A stretch of 64,000 bases of DNA, taken from contig NZ_MRCD01000020.1 of assembly GCF_001904745.1 (NCBI RefSeq), positions 1 through 64,000 on the forward strand, written 5' to 3'. Positions 298 to 9,258 of this stretch are shown here, piece after piece. Both the position numbers and the translations under genes were made by a program. Source of the DNA: Calothrix sp. HK-06 (GTDB lineage Bacteria > Cyanobacteriota > Cyanobacteriia > Cyanobacteriales > Nostocaceae). A model generated the notes under the pieces. The model was not told the DNA's origin. It made no database searches and saw only the letters and a list, made by a program, of their open reading frames with translations. Each line of letters starts with the position of its first letter. Positions within the stretch are counted from its first letter, which is position 1.

Positions 298-1386
298 ATG
301 CAAGACTTAAAAAAACTAGGTAGCAATCGAACAACTCGCCGTTCAGTATTATTCCTTCTCGGCGCCTGTATGGCATTTTCAACATCACTAGTAGGTTGTG
401 GAACACAAACTTCGCAACCAGACCAAGCAGCTTCACCCACTAGTACAGAAGCAGCAAGTCAAACAACAACAGGTGGTAAAACAATACGTATAGTCCGTTC
501 AAAACAACTTACCGCTCTTGCTTCTTTAGAAAAAAGAGGTAATTTAGAAAAAAAATTAGAGCCTCTAGGCTATAAAGTGCAATGGCTTGAGTTTGCAGCA
601 GGACCACAACAACTAGAAGCTATCAATGCAGGTGGACTGGATATTGCCTCCACAGCAGAATCACCACCAGTATTCGCACAAGCAGCAGGCTCATCTCTTG
701 TTTACTTAGCTGCTAATTCTTCTGATGGTAGGTCTATTTCATTAGTAGTTCCCGCTAACTCTCCTATAAAAAGCGTCAAAGACTTAAAAGGTAAAAAGGT
801 AGCTTTCCAAAAAGCATCGATAGGTCATTACTTACTTGTCAGAGCATTAGAAAAAGAAGGACTAAAACTCAGTGATGTCCAGTCAGTTTTTCTACCACCT
901 CCAGATGCCAACGTTGCATTTAGTCAAAATAGAGTTGACGCTTGGTTTATTTGGGAACCGTTTGTTACCAGAAACGTACAGAAAAAAGTTGGGCGTGTTT
1001 TAATCGATGGTGGTAATGGTTTGCGTGATAGCAACGGCTTTTTCACAACATCGCGCGCTTTCTATGACAATAATCAAGAAGCTATCAAAATCTTCCTTGA
1101 CGAATTCCAAAAAGAGCAAAATTGGGCAAAAAATAACTCTAAACAATTAGCAGAATTACTTGCTCCTGTAACTCAACTTGATGTACCAACCTTAGAAGTT
1201 ATGCACGACAAGTATGATTTTACTTTAGTTCCAATTACAGAGCAAACCATTACTAAACAACAAGAAGTAGCAGACAAATGGTTCAGCTTAGGGTTAATAC
1301 CTAAAAAAGTAGATGTCAGAGAGCAATTTTTAAAACCAGAAGAGTACGCCAAAATAACTCCACAAGAAGTTCTAGCCAAAAAATAA
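298..1386 (+). CDS. ssuA: Aliphatic sulfonate ABC transporter, substrate-binding lipoprotein (first copy)
   Basis: Periplasmic receptor of a sulfonate importer, 362 aa. The N-terminus has a twin Arg near residues 14-15, a hydrophobic stretch and a lipobox L-V-G-C at 31-34, so it is a lipoprotein. The body is an SsuA/NrtA-type periplasmic-binding fold, with IRIVRSKQ at the start of the mature domain, GLDIASTAESPPVFAQAAG, and DLKGKKVAFQKAS in the middle. It is clearly related to the second receptor at 5410-6474. It is followed after 30 bp by a TauD-like dioxygenase, which suggests co-transcription. No clear Shine-Dalgarno precedes this ATG, and I found no good copy of the 26-bp motif upstream. 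Family assignment is firm; the exact sulfonate is unknown. Confidence 0.88.
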   Translation: MQDLKKLGSNRTTRRSVLFLLGACMAFSTSLVGCGTQTSQPDQAASPTSTEAASQTTTGGKTIRIVRSKQLTALASLEKRGNLEKKLEPLGYKVQWLEFAAGPQQLEAINAGGLDIASTAESPPVFAQAAGSSLVYLAANSSDGRSISLVVPANSPIKSVKDLKGKKVAFQKASIGHYLLVRALEKEGLKLSDVQSVFLPPPDANVAFSQNRVDAWFIWEPFVTRNVQKKVGRVLIDGGNGLRDSNGFFTTSRAFYDNNQEAIKIFLDEFQKEQNWAKNNSKQLAELLAPVTQLDVPTLEVMHDKYDFTLVPITEQTITKQQEVADKWFSLGLIPKKVDVREQFLKPEEYAKITPQEVLAKK

Positions 1387-1416: not shown

Positions 1417-2280
1417 ATGTCTACAGCAACCGCAATAGAATTTAAGATAACTCCTCTCAATGCACCACTAGGTGCCGTTGTAACCGGACTAGATGGAAGT
1501 CAAGCAGTGGCGCCAGAAAAAATTTTGCAGTTAAAACAAGCGCTGCGCGATTACCACATCTTAATATTTAAAGAACAAAAGCTGACTGATGAACAGTTCT
1601 TGAACTTTGCCTTTTACTTTGGCTCACTATTTGTCCCATCAGATGAAACTCCAGTATTAGCATCTCAACCAGGAGTAACTCCAGTAATAATTCCCGTCTC
1701 AAACGTTGATGGAGGTTATACAGGAACTGGTGAACTCACCTTTCATTCAGACCACAAATGGACACCTTATCCTTCGAGTGGTTCATTACTTTATGCCTTA
1801 GAAATACCTTCTGCTGGTGGAAACACTTATTGGTTAAATACCAACTTAGCCTATGAAACTTTAGACGAAACCACCAAAAACCAAATAGCAAATTTACAGT
1901 TAATTACCTACAACCCGTTTTTGCACGACCGTAACGAACCGAGAAAACCTTATCGCTTAGACAACACCATACCCTTAATTAGTCCTGTTTTCCCTCATCC
2001 TTTAGTTAGAACACATCCAGAAAGCGGCAAAAAGCATTTATATTTAGATGCTGCAACTGAAGTTGAAATAGTTGGCTTAGAACCACAAGAAGGCGCCGCA
2101 CTTATTGAACGATTACGTAAACATTTAAATCAGCCACAATTCTATTATCAACATAATTGGTCTGTAGGTGATATTGTTTACTGGGACAATCAAGCCACTT
2201 TGCATTACCGCGAAGCATTTGACCCTTCGGAGCGAAGAGTCTTACATAGAATTAGCCTCGCAGGTAGCCGTCCTTTTTAG
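1417..2280 (+). CDS. TauD/TfdA-family Fe(II)/2-oxoglutarate dioxygenase, probable sulfonate dioxygenase
   Basis: Cytosolic non-haem iron dioxygenase (287 aa; E. coli TauD is 283). Such enzymes hydroxylate the carbon bearing the sulfonate, releasing sulfite and an aldehyde. The metal triad is visible: His110-x-Asp112 in TFHSDHKW and the distal His263 in ATLHYREAF. Arg274, in the RRVLHR segment, is the likely 2-oxoglutarate ligand. An AGGG Shine-Dalgarno lies 7 nt before the ATG. It sits between ssuA and ssuD, so its substrate is probably a sulfonate. Whether taurine, another alkanesulfonate or a sulfate ester is not decidable from the sequence. A hairpin repeat follows the stop. Confidence 0.85.
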   Translation: MSTATAIEFKITPLNAPLGAVVTGLDGSQAVAPEKILQLKQALRDYHILIFKEQKLTDEQFLNFAFYFGSLFVPSDETPVLASQPGVTPVIIPVSNVDGGYTGTGELTFHSDHKWTPYPSSGSLLYALEIPSAGGNTYWLNTNLAYETLDETTKNQIANLQLITYNPFLHDRNEPRKPYRLDNTIPLISPVFPHPLVRTHPESGKKHLYLDAATEVEIVGLEPQEGAALIERLRKHLNQPQFYYQHNWSVGDIVYWDNQATLHYREAFDPSERRVLHRISLAGSRPF

Positions 2281-2332: not shown

Positions 2333-2358
2333 TACGATTTACCGATAAACATACCGTA
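2333..2358. promoter_or_regulatory. 26-bp sulfonate-regulon motif upstream of ssuD
   Basis: One of four copies of a 26-bp motif: TACnGnw at positions 1-7, a central element containing CrrTmAA, then TACnGTA at 20-26. This copy is TACGATT, 12 nt, TACCGTA. A TATAAT -10-like hexamer overlaps its right end (2357-2362), and the ssuD ATG is 28 nt further on. This suggests an operator covering the core promoter. The regulator is not in the window. Confidence 0.65.
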
Positions 2359-2386
2359 TAATTGAATCAGTTCAAATATAGGGTTT

Positions 2387-3532
2387 ATGCAACTACTTTG
2401 GTTTATTCCCACGCACGGTGACGGACGCTACCTTGGTACAGCAATAGGTGGACGCGCGGCAAATTTTGATTACTGGCGCCAAATAGCGCAAGCTGTAGAT
2501 CAATTAGGATTTACAGGCGCCTTATTACCAACCGGACGTTCATGTGAAGACGCTTGGGTTTTGGCGTCAACTTTGGTAACACATACAAAAAAGATGCGGT
2601 TCTTAGTAGCTATACGTCCAGGGTTAATGTCACCTGGAGTTGCAGCAAGAATGGCAGCAACATTTGACCGAGTTTCTAATGGCAGATTACTAATTAATGT
2701 AGTTACAGGAGGTGACCCTGTAGAATTAGCAGGTGATGGAGTGCATTTGTCTCACGATGACCGCTATAAGCAAACAGATGAATTTTTAACGGTATGGCGC
2801 CAGATAGCAGCAGGAGAGGTAACAAACTTTCAAGGTGATTATCTAAACATAGATGGTGGCAAAATACTATTCCCTCCAGTGCAAAAACCTTATCCACCGT
2901 TGTGGTTTGGTGGGTCTTCACCTATTGCTCAAGAAATAGCAGCGAAACATGTAGATGTATATTTAACTTGGGGCGAACCACCAGAACAGGTAGCTGCAAA
3001 AATAGCTTCGGTGCGCCGACTCGCTGAAGCCGAAGGTAGAACATTACGTTTTGGTATCCGCTTGCATGTCATAGTAAGGGAAACAGAAAGTCAAGCTTGG
3101 GATGCAGCGAACGATTTAATTCGTTATGTAGATGAAGAAGCAATTACTAAAGCTCAACAAGCATATGCACGTATGGACTCAGTTGGGCAAAGTCGAATGA
3201 AAGATTTACATAACGGTAGTAAAGAAGCTTTAGAAATTAGCCCGAATTTGTGGGCAGGAATTGGGTTAGTACGTGGTGGTGCTGGAACTGCTCTAGTTGG
3301 CGCCCCAGACACAGTGCGGAAAAGAATATTGGAGTATGCAGACTTGGGAATTGATAGCTTTATCTTCTCAGGTTATCCACATTTAGAAGAAGCATATCGA
3401 GTAGCTGAACTGCTTTTCCCGCTTTTACCTTTGGAAAATCTTCCAGAAATTGAGCAACAACAAGTATTAAGTCCGTTTGGTGAAGTAGTTGGGAATAGAG
3501 AATTTCCAAAACAGAGAGTAACTGTCGATTAA
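2387..3532 (+). CDS. ssuD: FMNH2-dependent alkanesulfonate monooxygenase SsuD
   Basis: Two-component flavin monooxygenase of the bacterial luciferase superfamily. It uses FMNH2 and O2 to cleave alkanesulfonates to aldehyde and sulfite. At 381 aa it has the same length as E. coli SsuD. Visible family segments are [13 protein letters not shown] at the N-terminus, [44 protein letters not shown], and the [12 protein letters not shown] segment. An AGGG Shine-Dalgarno precedes the ATG. The flavin reductase partner SsuE is not in this window. Together with the TauD-like protein, the cell has two oxygenolytic routes to sulfite at one locus. Confidence 0.93.
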
Positions 3533-3543
3533 AATTGTCTTGT

Positions 3544-3594
3544 GGGGTGGGCATCCTTGCCTGCCCCCTTCAGATGGAAAGCACTCTTCGTGCT
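3544..3594. terminator. Hairpins between convergent ssuD and ssuC
   Basis: Two adjacent hairpins fill the 70-bp gap. The first, 3544-3567, is a GC-rich GGGGTGGGCA / TGCCTGCCCC stem of the dispersed GGCAGG-ATGCC repeat type. The second, about 3578-3594, is AAAGCAC / GTGCTT. No long T-tract is present, so termination in either direction is inferred. Confidence 0.4.
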
Positions 3595-3602
3595 TATTAC
3601 GA

Positions 3603-4445
3603 TTAAGCTTTTGCGTAATTGGGGTTCCACTGTAACCAATGTTGTTCTAGTTTCCGCGCGATAATATCTGCCAACTTCCCAAACAGCGCATACAACAAAA
3701 TACTTAAAACAACAACATCAGTTTGCATAAACTCTCGTGCGTTCATTGCCATATAACCAATACCAGAGTCAGCAGCTATAGTTTCTGCAACAATCAATGT
3801 TAACCACATAATACCTAATGAAAAGCGAACTCCTACCAAGATAGAAGACATTGCTCCTGGTAGGATAACTCGCCAAAATAAACCCCACGCGCTTAAACCA
3901 TAAATTCTGCCCATTTCAATTAGTCCCGCATCTACACTGCGGATACCATGAAATGTATTTAAGTATATAGGAAACATTACACCTAACGATACAAGAAATA
4001 ATCTCGCTTCGTCCCCAATTCCAAACCACAAAATTACCAGCGGTATTAATGCTAAATTCGGAATATTACGCAACATCTGTATTGATGTGTCTAAAAGTTT
4101 TTCTGCTATTGGAGAAATACCATTAATTAAACCTAAACAAAATCCAATTAACCCCCCAAGCAAAAACCCAGATATCGCGCGCGTTGCACTAATCGTAATA
4201 TTTCTAAACAGTTCACCTGTTTGAGCTAACCTGATAGCAGCATCTAATACTCCTAAAGGTGAAGGCAGTATTCGAGTAGGAATTAAACCAATAGAAGAAA
4301 AGAACTGCCAAAACACTAGAATTGATACAGGTACAACCCAAGGGATAATTGCTTGAATAGAGCGATTCTTTAGAAAATCAGATTGAGAAAACTTTGGTTT
4401 TCTGCTCTTTGGTCTTAGGGCTTCATTCGCAGAATGTATTTTCAT
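3603..4445 (-). CDS. ssuC: Aliphatic sulfonate ABC transporter permease SsuC
   Basis: Inner-membrane permease of the sulfonate importer, 280 aa, with about six hydrophobic segments and the BPD_transp_1 fold. The cytoplasmic EAA-type loop reads EMGRIYGLSAWGLFWRVILPGA. It starts 24 bp after the ssuB stop, so the two are co-transcribed. The charged N-terminal 30 residues precede the first membrane segment. It probably works with both SsuA-type receptors in this island, since only one permease/ATPase set is present. Confidence 0.9.
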   Translation of the reverse strand: MKIHSANEALRPKSRKPKFSQSDFLKNRSIQAIIPWVVPVSILVFWQFFSSIGLIPTRILPSPLGVLDAAIRLAQTGELFRNITISATRAISGFLLGGLIGFCLGLINGISPIAEKLLDTSIQMLRNIPNLALIPLVILWFGIGDEARLFLVSLGVMFPIYLNTFHGIRSVDAGLIEMGRIYGLSAWGLFWRVILPGAMSSILVGVRFSLGIMWLTLIVAETIAADSGIGYMAMNAREFMQTDVVVLSILLYALFGKLADIIARKLEQHWLQWNPNYAKA

Positions 4446-4469
4446 AGAAATTAAAAAGTTTAATGTAAG

Positions 4470-5264
4470 CTATGCACTGATTCGACTAGTAAATTGTGTT
4501 TGTAAAGAAGCTTCTGGTCTAGCCATAACTCGGTGTAAAATCTTCTCTACAGTTTGAGCAAGCACAACATCACCTCGAACGCGCGGACGCGGAATATTGA
4601 TTTCTACATCCAAACCAATTTGACCGTTTTCTACCAAAATGACTCGATCTGCTAGTACTACCGCTTCTTCAACATCATGGGTTATTAACAGTGCTGTAAA
4701 TCCTTGTTCTTTCCACAAATTCTCTAATAATTGCTGCATTTCAATTCTAGTTAGTGCGTCTAATGCTCCTAACGGTTCATCCAACAGCAATAACGAAGGT
4801 CTACTCGCTAACGCTCTTGCTAGCGCTACCCTTTGTCGTTGTCCACCAGATAATACAGAAGGCCACTCGTTTGCTCTATCTTCTAAACCGACTGCACCTA
4901 GTACCTGCAACGCCATTTGTTTAGAATAAACCTTCGAGTTGGCGCCAACTAAACCTAATTCAACATTTGATAATACTCTTTCCCACGGTAATAGTCGCGG
5001 GTCTTGAAACATCATCCGAACTGCCGGATTAATCTTTTGATGCGATACTTTTCCATTCAACACCACATTACCACTAGTTGGCACCTCTAACCCTGCAATC
5101 AAACGTAACATTGTGCTTTTACCACAACCACTACGACCGACAATAGCTACAAACTCACCCTTGTCTATATTGATATCAACTCCTCTCAAGACTGTCTTGG
5201 TGCCGAAAGATTTTGTCAAAGAATGAAGTTGTAGCTGCATTCCACGTGCTTCAGTCGTCATCAC
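4470..5264 (-). CDS. ssuB: Aliphatic sulfonate ABC transporter ATP-binding protein SsuB
   Basis: ATPase of the sulfonate importer, 264 aa. Walker A is GRSGCGKST, the Q-loop is [11 protein letters not shown], the signature is [14 protein letters not shown], Walker B is [12 protein letters not shown] and the switch His is in ITHDVEEA. The C-terminal RPRVRGD segment is typical of SsuB. The start is GTG at 5264 or ATG at 5261; an AGAGG Shine-Dalgarno lies just upstream. Its own copy of the 26-bp motif lies at 5337-5362, so ssuBC can be transcribed separately from ssuA2. Confidence 0.92.
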
Positions 5265-5336
5265 GCTAACCTCTTATTTCTCTAAGATTTTACTTATTCA
5301 CCTACCGACTCCGATATCCGTACCCTTAAATTAAAA

Positions 5337-5362
5337 TACGGTTAATCAGTAAAGATACCGTA
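5337..5362. promoter_or_regulatory. 26-bp sulfonate-regulon motif upstream of ssuB
   Basis: Copy of the shared motif: TACGGTT, 12 nt containing AATCAGTAAA, TACCGTA. It lies 72 nt upstream of the ssuB start, in the gap after the ssuA2 stop. Read on the - strand its end runs into a TATTTT -10-like hexamer. Confidence 0.65.
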
Positions 5363-5409
5363 CTTTCTTCAAGTTTGCCATAACTATCAAGAAATTACAA
5401 GCATCAAGA

Positions 5410-6474
5410 TTATGTTTTTGGTGTAAATGCTGCATACTGCTCAGGTGCCAGTGTTGCTTCCTTAATACTGACTTGCTTAGGTAGTAATTTTAACTCATAG
5501 AATTTGTCTGCAACTTGTTGCTGAACTTGAATCAAGTTATTATCTATAGGCACAACACCAAACTGTTTTCTTTGGGTAGCTTTTTTCATCGTGTCTAAAT
5601 CTATACCTAATACAGGAGAAAGAGTTTCAGCAACAGCATCTCGGTTTTGATTTGACCAATCTTCTAAAGCTTTGATTTCTTCTAGTATTGCTTTGATTGT
5701 TGGTTTATTATTAGTTGCGAAATTTCGGGAAGCTAAATAGTACCCTCCCTGTTTATTAAGTCCTTCACCAGTTGCTACAACACGAGCATTAATTGATTTC
5801 TCAGCAGCAGCAAAGAAGGGATCCCAAATTGCCCATGCATCAATACTACCTTTGACTAAAGCCGCGCGCGCGTCTGCTGGTGGTAAAAACATAGGTTGAA
5901 CATCAGTATATTGTAATCCTGCTTTTTCTAGAAGTTGCACGAGCAAGTAATGAGCACTAGAAGCTTTTTGTAAAGCTATTTTTTTACCTTTAAGGTCAGC
6001 AACGGTTTTTACTGGTGAGTTTTGGGGTACAAGAATAGCTTGACTTGCAGGACTAGGTGCAATTCCTGCTATATATATTAATGCTGCTCCTGCTGCTTGA
6101 GCAAAAATTGGTGGTGTTTCTCCTGTATGTCCAAAGTCAATACTGCCTACGTTCAATGCTTCTAGAAGTTGTGGTCCCGCAGGAAACTCTATCCACTGCA
6201 CTTTTACTCCTTCTGGTTGAAGACGTTTTTCTAAAACTCCTTTGCTTTTTAGTAGAATTAATGATTTTTGATAACCAAATCTTACTACCGATGCTTTGGT
6301 CTGGTTTGAATTATTCGCGGACACAGTACTTGTATTGCTTGCATTGTTAGCCGTGCAAGCAGCAAATAACAGGCTAATACATAAACCAGTAACAAAGGCG
6401 CCAAGAAATGGAATAGTTAATAATCTCCACCTTTGTAACAGCGGTGTTAGTCTTTGAAAAAGTTGGTTAATCAT
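5410..6474 (-). CDS. ssuA: Aliphatic sulfonate ABC transporter, substrate-binding lipoprotein (second copy)
   Basis: Second sulfonate receptor, 354 aa from the chosen ATG at 6474. This start is preferred over the upstream one at 6579 because it has an AAGGGGGG Shine-Dalgarno and begins a proper signal peptide. The lipobox is F-A-A-C, followed by an Asn/Ser/Thr-rich linker. The mature domain shows VRFGYQKSLILLKSKG, SIDFGHTGETPPIFAQAAG and DLKGKKIALQKASSAHYLLV, paralogous to the receptor at 298-1386. It lies between the porin and ssuBC on the same strand. Two receptors with one permease/ATPase set suggest a widened substrate range. Confidence 0.9.
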   Translation of the reverse strand: MINQLFQRLTPLLQRWRLLTIPFLGAFVTGLCISLLFAACTANNASNTSTVSANNSNQTKASVVRFGYQKSLILLKSKGVLEKRLQPEGVKVQWIEFPAGPQLLEALNVGSIDFGHTGETPPIFAQAAGAALIYIAGIAPSPASQAILVPQNSPVKTVADLKGKKIALQKASSAHYLLVQLLEKAGLQYTDVQPMFLPPADARAALVKGSIDAWAIWDPFFAAAEKSINARVVATGEGLNKQGGYYLASRNFATNNKPTIKAILEEIKALEDWSNQNRDAVAETLSPVLGIDLDTMKKATQRKQFGVVPIDNNLIQVQQQVADKFYELKLLPKQVSIKEATLAPEQYAAFTPKT

Positions 6475-6503
6475 TTTTATTGCCCCCCTTATTATAGACA
6501 TAA

Positions 6504-6529
6504 TACTGTAAATCGATAAATTTACAGTA
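6504..6529. promoter_or_regulatory. 26-bp sulfonate-regulon motif upstream of ssuA2
   Basis: The most symmetrical copy: TACTGTA, 12 nt containing AATCGATAAA, TACAGTA. It sits inside a perfect 15-bp inverted repeat with a 6-nt spacer (6499-6534). On the - strand a TATTAT hexamer overlaps its end, and the ssuA2 ATG is 29 nt away, almost the same geometry as at ssuD. The inverted repeat could also act as a terminator for the porin gene ending at 6552. Confidence 0.68.
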
Positions 6530-6551
6530 TTATGTTGATAAAAAAATTGGC

Positions 6552-8375
6552 TTAAAATCTGAAGGTAGTACGTAGCCAACCAATCACAGCATCAGGATTG
6601 CTTTCATCAGAGTTGGGAGCAGTAACCCAGATGAAACCTGGTGTAATCGCAATACTATCGGTAAGTTGATACTGATACCATCCCTCAACGTGAAGGGAGG
6701 TATCCTTGTCTGCTTGTCCTCGACCTGCTCCCAAATCTACATTTCTACTAAGAGAAGTTAATTTTGGTGCCATACCAACAAAAAGACCTCCTAAACTACC
6801 TTCTTTACCCAAGTCAGGAAACGATAGTCCAACACCCCAGTTCCAAACATCAGCATCCCCTTGTTCTAAAAAACGGTGTGAAGAATAACCTACAAAACCA
6901 TTGACTGCAAACTTTGGACTCAACTGATAAAAAGCTCCAATGCCATAAAGATTTCCTACTGTTCCTTTATCAACAATCCCATTTGCTGCGTTTTGAATGT
7001 TAGTAGAGATAGTGCTGTTCGCTAAATTACTACCAGCAGCAGGACCAAAGTTAGTTCCACCTTGACCCAGAGTTCCTGGTGGACTGTATGTGTTGGCATA
7101 ACTTAAAGCAAATCGAAAATCTCGACTGGGGGAAAAGTATGTTAACTGTCCAAAGGCAACATATCTACCTGTAAACAAACCATTATTCGGTGTGGGATTA
7201 TCGCCATTAGGGGCACTATAAGATACTCCTAATTCAAACTGTTTATTGAATTTATGCAGTATGGCAATTCCAGGACCAGTATCTCCGTAGTTATACACCA
7301 TGTTCCGGCGTGAGAATCGTGAAATCCCGTTCGCGGCAGACCCTTCAAAATATGGGTTCGTAGGTCCACTTAATCCAATCTCCAAGGCGCCATCCGACTG
7401 AGCAAAAACATTAAATTGAGTGTTTTCAGTAAGTGGGAACCGATAACGAATGCCAGTAAGAGCAAGTTGATTAGGACCAAAAGCTGGACTAGCGTTATCG
7501 GCAGTTCTCCCGTCAAAAGTTCCGAAAATTCCACCAGTCGGATTACTTGTACTTAGGGGATTTGAAAAATTACCTCTAGGGTTAGGAACACCACCCAAAG
7601 ATGTAATATTTCCACCTGACAGTGTTAAGCGTAGTTGGTCTTTACCACTGAAACTACTACTTAATACCAGACGAACCCGGTCTGAAAGTGTAATGGTGCG
7701 CGGTGCTGGTTGCTTAGTAATAACGTTATTACCTGCAAAAACTCCTCCAACCACAAACTGAAATTCACCCGTAAGTTTGGTTGTTGCTGAAAACTGGTTT
7801 GCTTTAACTTCTGCAAGCTTTTGTTCGAGATTATCTATTCTTCCTCTTAATTCACCGAGTTCTGGTTTAAACTCTTCTGTTAGTTTCTTTATAGTGTCTA
7901 AATCTCGCTTCGTCGCCAAATCACTTGTTGATGACGCAATTAATTTCGTCGCTTGCTCTAAGCAAGAATTTAACCCGGCTGCAAACTCATAACGTGTCAA
8001 AGCACGATTGCCACGATAAGTACTATTTGGGTATCCAACAATACACCCATATCGCTCTACTAAAGACTGAAGTGCTTGAAAAGCCCAATCTGTAGGCGCC
8101 ACATCCGAAAGTTTTGATACAGATGTTACAGGAGTTTCATCTATAGTCGATGTATCAGATGGATTTTGAGCAGTTTCTTCAGTAGGCGTCTGTGCTGTAT
8201 TACTCTCAATCTGATTGAAGTCGAGAACAGAATTTTCATCCAATGATACAAGGGCTTCTGTTTCCTCTTCCTTATCCTTCTCCTCTTGGATATCAGCATA
8301 AGCACTCGTTGCTGAGAAAAAAGGTAAAACCAAAACACTGCATACTATTGATAAATTCCAAAAAACTTTTTTCAT
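6552..8375 (-). CDS. SLH-domain OprB-family outer-membrane porin
   Basis: Cyanobacterial porin of the SLH + OprB type, 607 aa from the ATG at 8375. That start begins a clean signal peptide (MKKVFWNLS... cleaved near SAYA). The longer frame upstream adds 31 residues that do not look like a leader. Order: signal peptide, acidic/Thr-rich linker, SLH domain (VAPTDWAFQALQSLVERYGCIVGYP... ALTRYEFAAGLNSCL), a coiled coil (about 30 residues with RGRIDNLEQKLAEVKANQ), then an OprB beta-barrel ending in WLRTTFRF, a C-terminal aromatic as usual for barrels. It carries the 26-bp motif upstream and lies in the sulfonate island, so it may serve sulfonate entry through the outer membrane. The substrate is inferred only from context. 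Confidence 0.88.
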   Translation of the reverse strand: MKKVFWNLSIVCSVLVLPFFSATSAYADIQEEKDKEEETEALVSLDENSVLDFNQIESNTAQTPTEETAQNPSDTSTIDETPVTSVSKLSDVAPTDWAFQALQSLVERYGCIVGYPNSTYRGNRALTRYEFAAGLNSCLEQATKLIASSTSDLATKRDLDTIKKLTEEFKPELGELRGRIDNLEQKLAEVKANQFSATTKLTGEFQFVVGGVFAGNNVITKQPAPRTITLSDRVRLVLSSSFSGKDQLRLTLSGGNITSLGGVPNPRGNFSNPLSTSNPTGGIFGTFDGRTADNASPAFGPNQLALTGIRYRFPLTENTQFNVFAQSDGALEIGLSGPTNPYFEGSAANGISRFSRRNMVYNYGDTGPGIAILHKFNKQFELGVSYSAPNGDNPTPNNGLFTGRYVAFGQLTYFSPSRDFRFALSYANTYSPPGTLGQGGTNFGPAAGSNLANSTISTNIQNAANGIVDKGTVGNLYGIGAFYQLSPKFAVNGFVGYSSHRFLEQGDADVWNWGVGLSFPDLGKEGSLGGLFVGMAPKLTSLSRNVDLGAGRGQADKDTSLHVEGWYQYQLTDSIAITPGFIWVTAPNSDESNPDAVIGWLRTTFRF

Positions 8376-8514
8376 AACTTCACCAACACACCACTTCTTA
8401 ATAGAACAAACTTTTGAACGGATGAACGCTCCTTTGACCATCCGGACTTCCGCAATGGCATCTTGCACAAAACAAAAACTCTAAAACCTCATAAAACACC
8501 CTGAACAATTAATC

Positions 8515-8540
8515 TACTGCATATCGGTCAATTTACTGTA
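8515..8540. promoter_or_regulatory. 26-bp sulfonate-regulon motif upstream of the porin
   Basis: Copy of the shared motif: TACTGCA, 12 nt containing TATCGGTCAA, TACTGTA. It lies 139 nt upstream of the chosen porin start. It is the least symmetrical of the four but keeps all the TAC/GTA positions and the 12-nt spacing. Confidence 0.58.
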
Positions 8541-8712: not shown

Positions 8713-8734
8713 AAATTTGGGAAATTCTAGCGTC

Positions 8735-9258
8735 TGGTGTAAATTTGGTCGAAGGTGGCGCCATTCTACAACTGCTACAGGTGCATTGATAGAAACGTTG
8801 ACTTGAGGTACTATGTAAGAAGGTAATGTTTTTCCTTGTTTCCTAGCTAAGATGACTTCGTTTCCGTAGGTCAGTGGTACATCACCTTAGTTCTTTTTTT
8901 AGAACGCATCGCTTGCTTCACGCGCGTATGATTGGTAATACTGGAACGTTACGATAAACTTGAGTTATATATTGCTTCGCAGCATCCAGATTACCACCAG
9001 TATGAATTACCGAACCCCACAGTCATAAGAAGTTCCAACGAGCAACACCTAATATTTTTGGATTTGCAGTAATAACTTTGACATCTTTTCTTGTCAAGTC
9101 TTTCCAACCTTGGATTCTTTTTGGATTACCTTCACGGGTTTCAAAAGCTATTACTGAACGAGTTACTATTCCATTATTTGCAAGTTCTTTTTCCCAACCT
9201 GGTTAAATTAAACTAGATTGTCGAGTAATATATCTTGACGAAAGCGTAGATTTGTGTG
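8735..9258 (-). pseudogene. Decayed sulfate-binding protein gene (sbp-type)
   Basis: Reverse translation gives scattered but unmistakable pieces of a periplasmic sulfate-binding protein: FRQDILLDN, WEKELANNGIVTRSVIAFETREGNPK, DVKVITANPKILGVARWNF, LWGSVIHTGGNLDAAKQYITQVYRNVPVLP, REASDAF, YGNEVILARKQGKTLPSYIVPQV and NAPVAVVE. At least two internal stops (after RWNFL, and in the I-P stretch before WEKEL) and several frameshifts separate them. The N-terminal half and the C-terminal end are missing. It lies beside the sulfonate genes, so it is a lost sulfate-uptake component of the same sulfur island. Confidence 0.85.

Follow-up and report, generated by a model that had tools for sequence, protein, structure and literature searches.

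IscR and NsrR, two members of the Rrf2 family, bind palindromic operators of about 25 bp and carry three cysteines in the loop after the wing. CymR, the Rrf2 protein of Bacillus subtilis and Staphylococcus aureus, is a repressor of cysteine metabolism that acts with cysteine synthase, CysK; according to excerpts of two papers (PMC4961446, PMC2869319), CymR and CysK together repress cysteine-supply genes, and a C-terminal isoleucine is usual in CysK partners. In the cyanobacterium Synechococcus elongatus, sulfate assimilation has a described regulator of another kind, the Crp/Fnr-family protein CysR (an excerpt of PMC12016511). The subject of this report is a 26-bp near-palindromic element (consensus TACGGTAAnTCGATnnATTTACCGTA) that occurs four times in an island of sulfonate genes of Calothrix sp. 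HK-06, within the first 64,000 nucleotides of contig NZ_MRCD01000020.1 (contig C112 in our numbering; this whole 64-kb stretch is referred to as the window). The element is probably a sulfur-limitation operator, its putative binder being P0001, an Rrf2-family, CymR-like protein that would work as a CysK-docked repressor.

The likeness to CymR lies in Rrf2 sequence, a C-terminal Y-I tail, cysK as neighbor or target, and a regulon devoted to sulfur supply. Unlike CymR, the Calothrix system is cyanobacterial, has three MYYI-type paralogues in one genome (one of them directly before cysK), and has a regulon spanning sulfonate, taurine and sulfate-ester scavenging, a porin and a sulfur-poor phycocyanin. 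With CysR it shares the role of a cyanobacterial sulfur-limitation regulator, and a CysR relative, with the site in front of it, is often found next to the Rrf2 gene; the protein family is different, however, and the geometry of the site does not look Crp-like. With IscR and NsrR it has family and long palindromic operator in common, but its site-bearing members are without the cysteine cluster of the iron-sulfur (Fe-S) type, and the genes concerned serve sulfur supply, not Fe-S or nitric oxide metabolism. Neither the motif nor a cyanobacterial CymR-type sulfur regulator was reported in the titles and abstract openings of the open-licence papers listed (at most 20 per search), a scope outside which the work of Gutu et al. 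(2011) on sulfate-driven sparing falls.

The original prediction placed four gapless copies of the element, with 14 fixed letters in common, upstream of ssuD, ssuB, ssuA2 and a porin gene. All 14 letters are present in each copy, and the order of genes is as predicted:

2333..2358, plus strand: operator before ssuD (TACGATTTACCGATAAACATACCGTA), by leave-one-out score; site kept in 42 of 43 orthologous promoters
5337..5362, minus strand: operator before ssuB(C), by leave-one-out score
6504..6529, minus strand: operator before ssuA2, by leave-one-out score; at 24.6 bits the second-best place listed for the home genome
6498..6535, no strand assigned: the ssuA2 operator as an inverted repeat with perfect 16-bp arms, from the sequence
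8515..8540, minus strand: operator before the porin gene, by leave-one-out score; site also before four of six porin homologues in relatives
2357..2362, plus strand: TATAAT, a -10-like hexamer overlapping the end of the ssuD operator, 24 nt from the start codon, from the sequence
6500..6505, minus strand: TATTAT, a -10-like hexamer overlapping the end of the ssuA2 operator, from the sequence

When a symmetrised matrix is built from three of these sites and the fourth is left out, the latter scores 17.3-27.8 bits and ranks fourth in the window, right behind the three sites used for training; the highest unrelated score is 9.7-11.0 bits, and every left-out site is at least 6 bits higher. Self-palindromy extends over 14, 14, 22 and 16 of the 26 positions of the sites at 2333, 5337, 6504 and 8515, respectively. 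The four look like real operators. (A technical note: the 14-letter pattern with up to three mismatches is found 13 times in the window against 10.3 expected, which is not significant alone; because of this, and because the pattern was drawn from the four sites themselves, the weight of the evidence is placed on the whole genome and its relatives.) The distance from site to start codon is 28 nt for ssuD, 29 nt for ssuA2 and 72 nt for ssuB; for the porin it is 139 nt if the ATG at 8375 is taken as the start, or 46 nt if an upstream GTG is. The two hexamers, which had been noted as overlapping the ends of the ssuD and ssuA2 sites with start codons 28-29 nt away, are where they were said to be and may be -10 elements. 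Among 35 different ssuD promoters, TAnnnT overlies the end of the site in 15, which is about chance given the fixed TA, and the -10 box is consequently not used as general evidence. No site was found for ssuA1-tauD, the first unit of the island (298-2280).

The home genome (9.99 Mb in 243 contigs) and a sample of 194 cyanobacterial genomes provide the larger test. The 14-letter pattern occurs exactly at eight places in the home genome, four of them outside the window; allowing one mismatch yields 26 places, compared with 8 for a reversed control. A strict palindromic pattern derived from the sites of relatives is found 17 times in the home genome against 0 for the control, and over the 194 genomes 157 times (in 37 genomes) against a control count, added by eye, of 7. 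A 64-site profile, seven of whose training sites come from the home genome, finds at least 30 distinct places there at E ≤1, a lower bound since 150 of 6791 candidates were scored.

Conservation was followed in orthologous promoters with the matrix from the four window sites, a site being counted at 12 bits or more within 220 nt; matches beginning beyond residue 60 or less than 150 nt from the end of a locus were excluded. At 80% identity or above, 42 of 43 ssuD orthologues have the site, 40 of these 42 sites end 19-50 nt ahead of the start codon, and position is kept while the flanks have diverged; none of 14 ssuD homologues at 60-80% identity has it by the same matrix and threshold. When 200-nt stretches were drawn at random from these loci, without removal of true sites, 3.2% of 3000 reached 12 bits. 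Elsewhere in the island, with paralogues counted, the site precedes 4/6 porin, 6/24 ssuA2, 9/66 ssuA1, 3/42 ssuB, 1/39 ssuC and 0/28 tauD homologues: conservation is strong at ssuD only. The expectation that orthologous ssu promoters would retain the site is thus borne out for ssuD and, over few loci, for the porin; at ssuA2, ssuB and ssuC retention is patchy or absent. In many ssuD promoters (L031-L088) the site is present two or three times, at spacings of about 92 and 77 bp.

A stretch of a plasmid of Pseudanabaena ABRG5-3 has sites (13.9-23.4 bits) before cysA, a cysK-cysE-Rrf2 operon, ssuC and a porin gene, a set that resembles that of the window in a distant cyanobacterium. Three of the five sites on this plasmid (ABRG53c, L320) share a variant center containing CATGTA, perhaps a lineage-specific operator. 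Among five plasmid stretches with related Rrf2 genes, those of Pseudanabaena ABRG5-3 and Kovacikia are positive and three are negative, with nothing that reaches 9 bits beside the Rrf2 genes of Calothrix NIES-4105, Nostoc UHCC 0302 and Aulosira NIES-50.

Elsewhere in the home genome the sites stand before further sulfur genes, as had been anticipated. The following were identified in fetched stretches downstream of sites of at least 18.5 bits (these stretches were selected by site, so that the list is not a blind enrichment test):

C218: cysK, with two sites
C111: a cysK-like gene of the PALP family
C140: a sulfatase gene, the site ending 7 nt before its start
C17: a sulfatase-maturation factor
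C22: TauE
C192: TauD
C192: two DmoA/NtaA-type monooxygenases
C243: an SfnB/DszC-like oxygenase, below the cut-offs of the models
C218: an SsuA-family binding protein
C243 and C96: glutathione transferases
C243: a sulfurtransferase-like protein, below cut-off, the site ending 5 nt before its start
C192: a methyltransferase and a reductase
C132: an aminotransferase
C22 (L254:3868): the chaperonin operon groES-groEL, with a 28-bit site directly upstream (GroEL by Pfam, groES by eye)
C230: a Crp-type regulator gene together with the Rrf2 gene P0001

In a hand-listed set, 23 of 37 sites lie no more than 50 nt ahead of a start codon, and some as close as 5-9 nt. By these placements the regulon is wider than the four island genes: it appears spread over the genome and reaches beyond uptake, to a sulfur-poor phycocyanin.

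On contig C205 a site of 28.3 bits lies upstream of cpcBA (L250:3941-5087), its end 45 nt from the gene; the β chain has one methionine (the start) and two cysteines, the α chain one of each. Mazel and Marliere (cited in PMC4424289) reportedly described in 1989 a sulfur-depleted phycocyanin, cpc3, of Calothrix/Tolypothrix PCC 7601; the C205 cpcBA has the methionine and cysteine make-up expected of it, and a composition of this kind suggests that it is cpc3 itself. In low sulfate, PCC 7601 makes antenna proteins poor in sulfur amino acids (an excerpt of PMC4424289). For comparison with C205, 30 cpcBA loci were taken as the best matches from 118 genomes. A site of at least 25 bits is present at each of the top eight (L267-L274, 88-100% identical), and none of the other 22 (L275-L296) has one of 12 bits or more. 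Low sulfur content alone was rejected as a predictor of the site: nine of the 22 site-less loci also have one methionine and two cysteines in the β chain (the counts did not parse for eight of the 30 loci: L273, L287-L292 and L295). Neighbors of the C205 cpcBA include a divergent gene resembling acyl-CoA dehydrogenase and two genes assigned by eye, one for a rhodanese and one of the YeeE type.

What, then, binds the element? The home genome encodes four Rrf2 proteins, three of which end in MYYI: P0001, whose neighbors are the Crp gene and what looks by eye like a sulfate-type transporter; P0002, near metX- and metY-like genes; and a third, directly before cysK. The Rrf2 domain (PF02082, cut-off 30 bits) is recognized in P0001 at 111.9 and in P0002 at 122.8 bits, and for both the closest solved structure is 4cic, followed by CymR (2y75; E=5.5e-19 against P0001) and then by IscR entries. 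The structures 3t8r (S. aureus CymR, ending in MFYI), 3lwf and 4cic have the same MYYI/MFYI-type ends. A tree was computed for 85 proteins: the fourth home Rrf2 and 84 proteins ending in MYYI or MFYI from the 194-genome sample, taken from among the matches listed (G048, G115 (48% rows), G169, G175 and lower rows were left out). The tail is MYYI in 83 of the 85 and MFYI in one. Sixty-one rows, cysK-linked and P0002-type, form one clade (support 94/96, just below the tool's own mark), and the promoter site (10 bits or more) is found in 2 of these 61; of the 23 other MYYI-type rows, P0001 included, 19 have it. P0001's own promoter is among them, and in 11 of the 19 the site starts exactly 70 nt before the start codon. 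A cysK-like gene follows within 1.3 kb in 48/61 rows of the cysK-linked clade and 10/23 of the P0001 group. No cysteine cluster of the Fe-S type was found in the loop of the 21 site-bearing rows: 19 have no cysteine there and the other two have one.

Across cyanobacteria, the promoters of the cysK-linked Rrf2 genes (e.g., L105:1495-2980) carry a different 26-bp near-palindrome (CAAACCCCAGTGGAGAACCGGAGTAT and similar), which scores at least 20 bits in 36 and at least 15 bits in 40 of 48 promoters (these being its own expectation-maximization training promoters, many of them from near relatives). Each Rrf2 group therefore seems to own its operator, the sister near-palindrome being apparently a second, housekeeping one. 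This pairing of each group with a long near-palindrome in front of its own gene is the strongest argument for an Rrf2 protein as the binder. The motif is also far commoner in genomes with the P0001 group: two or more strict sites are found in 18/23 genomes with the P0001 group as against 8/171 without it (p=4e-15) and, inside the family, in 15/17 as against 2/9 (p=0.0016). P0002 had also been considered as the regulator by virtue of a 33-bit site. This site is 244 nt away from P0002, however, and 22 nt ahead of a divergent open reading frame, and none of six P0002 orthologues (L190-L195) has one of 10 bits or more; P0001 therefore replaced P0002 as the candidate. In S. elongatus pANL, the best match in 46 kb (10.1 bits, weak) ends 35 nt before an Rrf2 gene. 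This pANL gene, which encodes an MFYI-ending protein, is set among genes for cysK, serine acetyltransferase and the encapsulin SrpI (stretch 24420-38624 of L317), adjoins carbonic anhydrase and catalase genes as well, and may be an overlooked regulator there.

How P0001 would work can be sketched on the model of CymR. While cysteine is ample, a P0001 dimer would cover the core promoter and exclude RNA polymerase, its C-terminal MYYI docked in CysK. Sulfur shortage would raise O-acetylserine, the CysK-repressor complex would break, and the genes would open: those for scavenging sulfonates, taurine, sulfate esters and sulfones, the uptake porin, an additional cysK and, within this clade, a phycocyanin with hardly any methionine or cysteine. 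The Crp-type cysR would itself be a target of the repressor. With as little as 5-9 nt between site and start codon in some genes, too close for activation of the usual kind, binding should block the polymerase, and site position together with gene content suggests repression of sulfur-source genes. The original proposal of one regulon, under one factor that acts over the core promoter and answers to sulfur status, gains support from the further sites before sulfur genes and from orthologue conservation; sulfur status and binding are inferred from gene content.

Several observations weigh against P0001 as the binder or against this way of its working. Four of the 23 P0001-group rows are without a promoter site, and the group comprises the rows outside a clade rather than a supported clade, in a tree computed on 144 columns only. 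G062 and G014 have a P0001-group gene but no strict site; G008, G033 and G042 have 3-4 strict sites, CysR and a cysK-linked Rrf2, and no P0001-group member; G005, G044 and G066 have 2-3 strict sites and neither the P0001 group nor a full-length CysR match; and in G091 (2 sites) and G089 (1 site) no MYYI-type Rrf2 was found. Some sites fit ill: one precedes a phage-integrase-family gene (C220) and several precede genes without identification. Start codons are our own calls, in the site-distance and activation arguments alike, and taking the first possible one after each site shortens the distances. For P0001, docking of the tail in CysK and signalling by O-acetylserine are assumptions carried over from CymR biology. 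To these must be added two facts about CysR: a CysR-like gene is present in all 23 P0001-group genomes, and a site of at least 10 bits is present in 23 of 31 cysR promoters (three of these sites are more than 200 nt away and may belong to a neighbor).

These facts are also the strength of an alternative in which CysR binds the element and the Rrf2 gene is just another CysR target. A CysR-like gene is likewise present in G008, G033 and G042, which have sites without the P0001 group, and the site precedes cysR in G040, G033, G042 and G191, also without it. Indeed, the CysR-like gene often adjoins the Rrf2 gene, the P0001 group never occurs without CysR in this sample, and site occurrence associates with both; with CysR in all 23 genomes and sites without the P0001 group in G008, G033, G042, G005, G044, G066 and G091, co-occurrence does not separate the two. 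Crp-type dimers contact DNA about 4-8 bp from the dyad. The strongest columns of the element are instead 11-13 bp from it, and the conservation pattern of a Crp-type half-site was not found, although the columns at 3-4 and 7-9 bp show conservation too (sites were picked by a score that favors the fixed ends of the seed). Moreover, the site remains in the Rrf2 promoter where cysR is elsewhere (G147, G121, G143, G149, G185, G072, G054, G179), and the sister Rrf2 clade has its own operator of equal length. In G089 and G091, which have CysR and no MYYI-type Rrf2, the cysR promoter is without the site, a weak point, since G008, G014, G030, G062, G093 and G179, with an MYYI-type Rrf2, also have no site of 10 bits or more before cysR. 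On geometry, sister operator and the persistence of Rrf2 promoter sites away from cysR, the Rrf2 protein is favored, and CysR, its main rival, is rather unlikely as the binder.

It is rather improbable that the element is an activator site whose factor recruits RNA polymerase in sulfur-starved cells. Sulfur-scavenging genes are activated in several bacteria, e.g., by CysB and Cbl, and the two or three sites about 77-93 bp apart in some ssuD promoters are an arrangement often met with activators. However, sites that end 5-28 nt before the start codon (sulfurtransferase-like gene 5, sulfatase 7, ssuD 28) would overlap or pass the start of transcription, and at two of the four sites in the window a -10-like hexamer overlaps the element. 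The notion that a dispersed repeat, or a motif arising by chance in AT-rich DNA, accounts for the sites could draw on the unexceptional count of the loose pattern in the window, but it hardly deserves credence when set against the strict-pattern counts and their controls (17 vs 0 and 157 vs 7), the fixed position amid diverged flanks in orthologous ssuD promoters, and the placement of sites before the genes of one pathway.

The genes of the island itself are as follows:

298..1386, plus strand: ssuA1, sulfonate-binding protein, without operator (TIGR01728 above cut-off)
1417..2280, plus strand: TauD-family dioxygenase, without operator (family model search)
2387..3532, plus strand: ssuD, alkanesulfonate monooxygenase dependent on reduced flavin mononucleotide (FMNH2) (TIGR03565, 616.7 bits, cut-off 518.2)
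3603..4445, minus strand: ssuC permease (NF008470 above cut-off)
4470..5264, minus strand: ssuB ATPase (best model NF008420, below its cut-off)
5410..6474, minus strand: ssuA2, sulfonate-binding protein (NF008588 and TIGR01728 above cut-off)
6552..8375, minus strand: cyanobacterial outer-membrane porin, SLH + OprB (NCBIfam 'iron uptake porin', NF033921)

Beyond the porin, at 8720-9250 of the window on the minus strand, lies a broken gene, with a stop followed by a change of frame; one of its frames resembles a piece of a sulfate-binding protein (family judged by eye).

With P0001 as the CymR-like binder, cyanobacterial use of organic sulfur would acquire a concrete switch and a candidate regulator. 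A more comprehensive proposal, the arguments for and against which seem to us about evenly balanced, is that one cysteine-sensing repressor of the CymR/CysK type ties sulfur scavenging, the porin and the chaperonin operon to remodelling of the antenna via sulfur-depleted phycocyanin, and that the divergence of operators among Rrf2 sisters sets housekeeping cysK apart from the starvation regulon. The operator before cpcBA offers a direct hypothesis for how the sulfur-sparing phycocyanin said to have been described in 1989 might be switched on by starvation. If all this is true, the CymR-CysK logic known from Firmicutes would be shared by a photosynthetic phylum and would there include paralogues with diverged operators.

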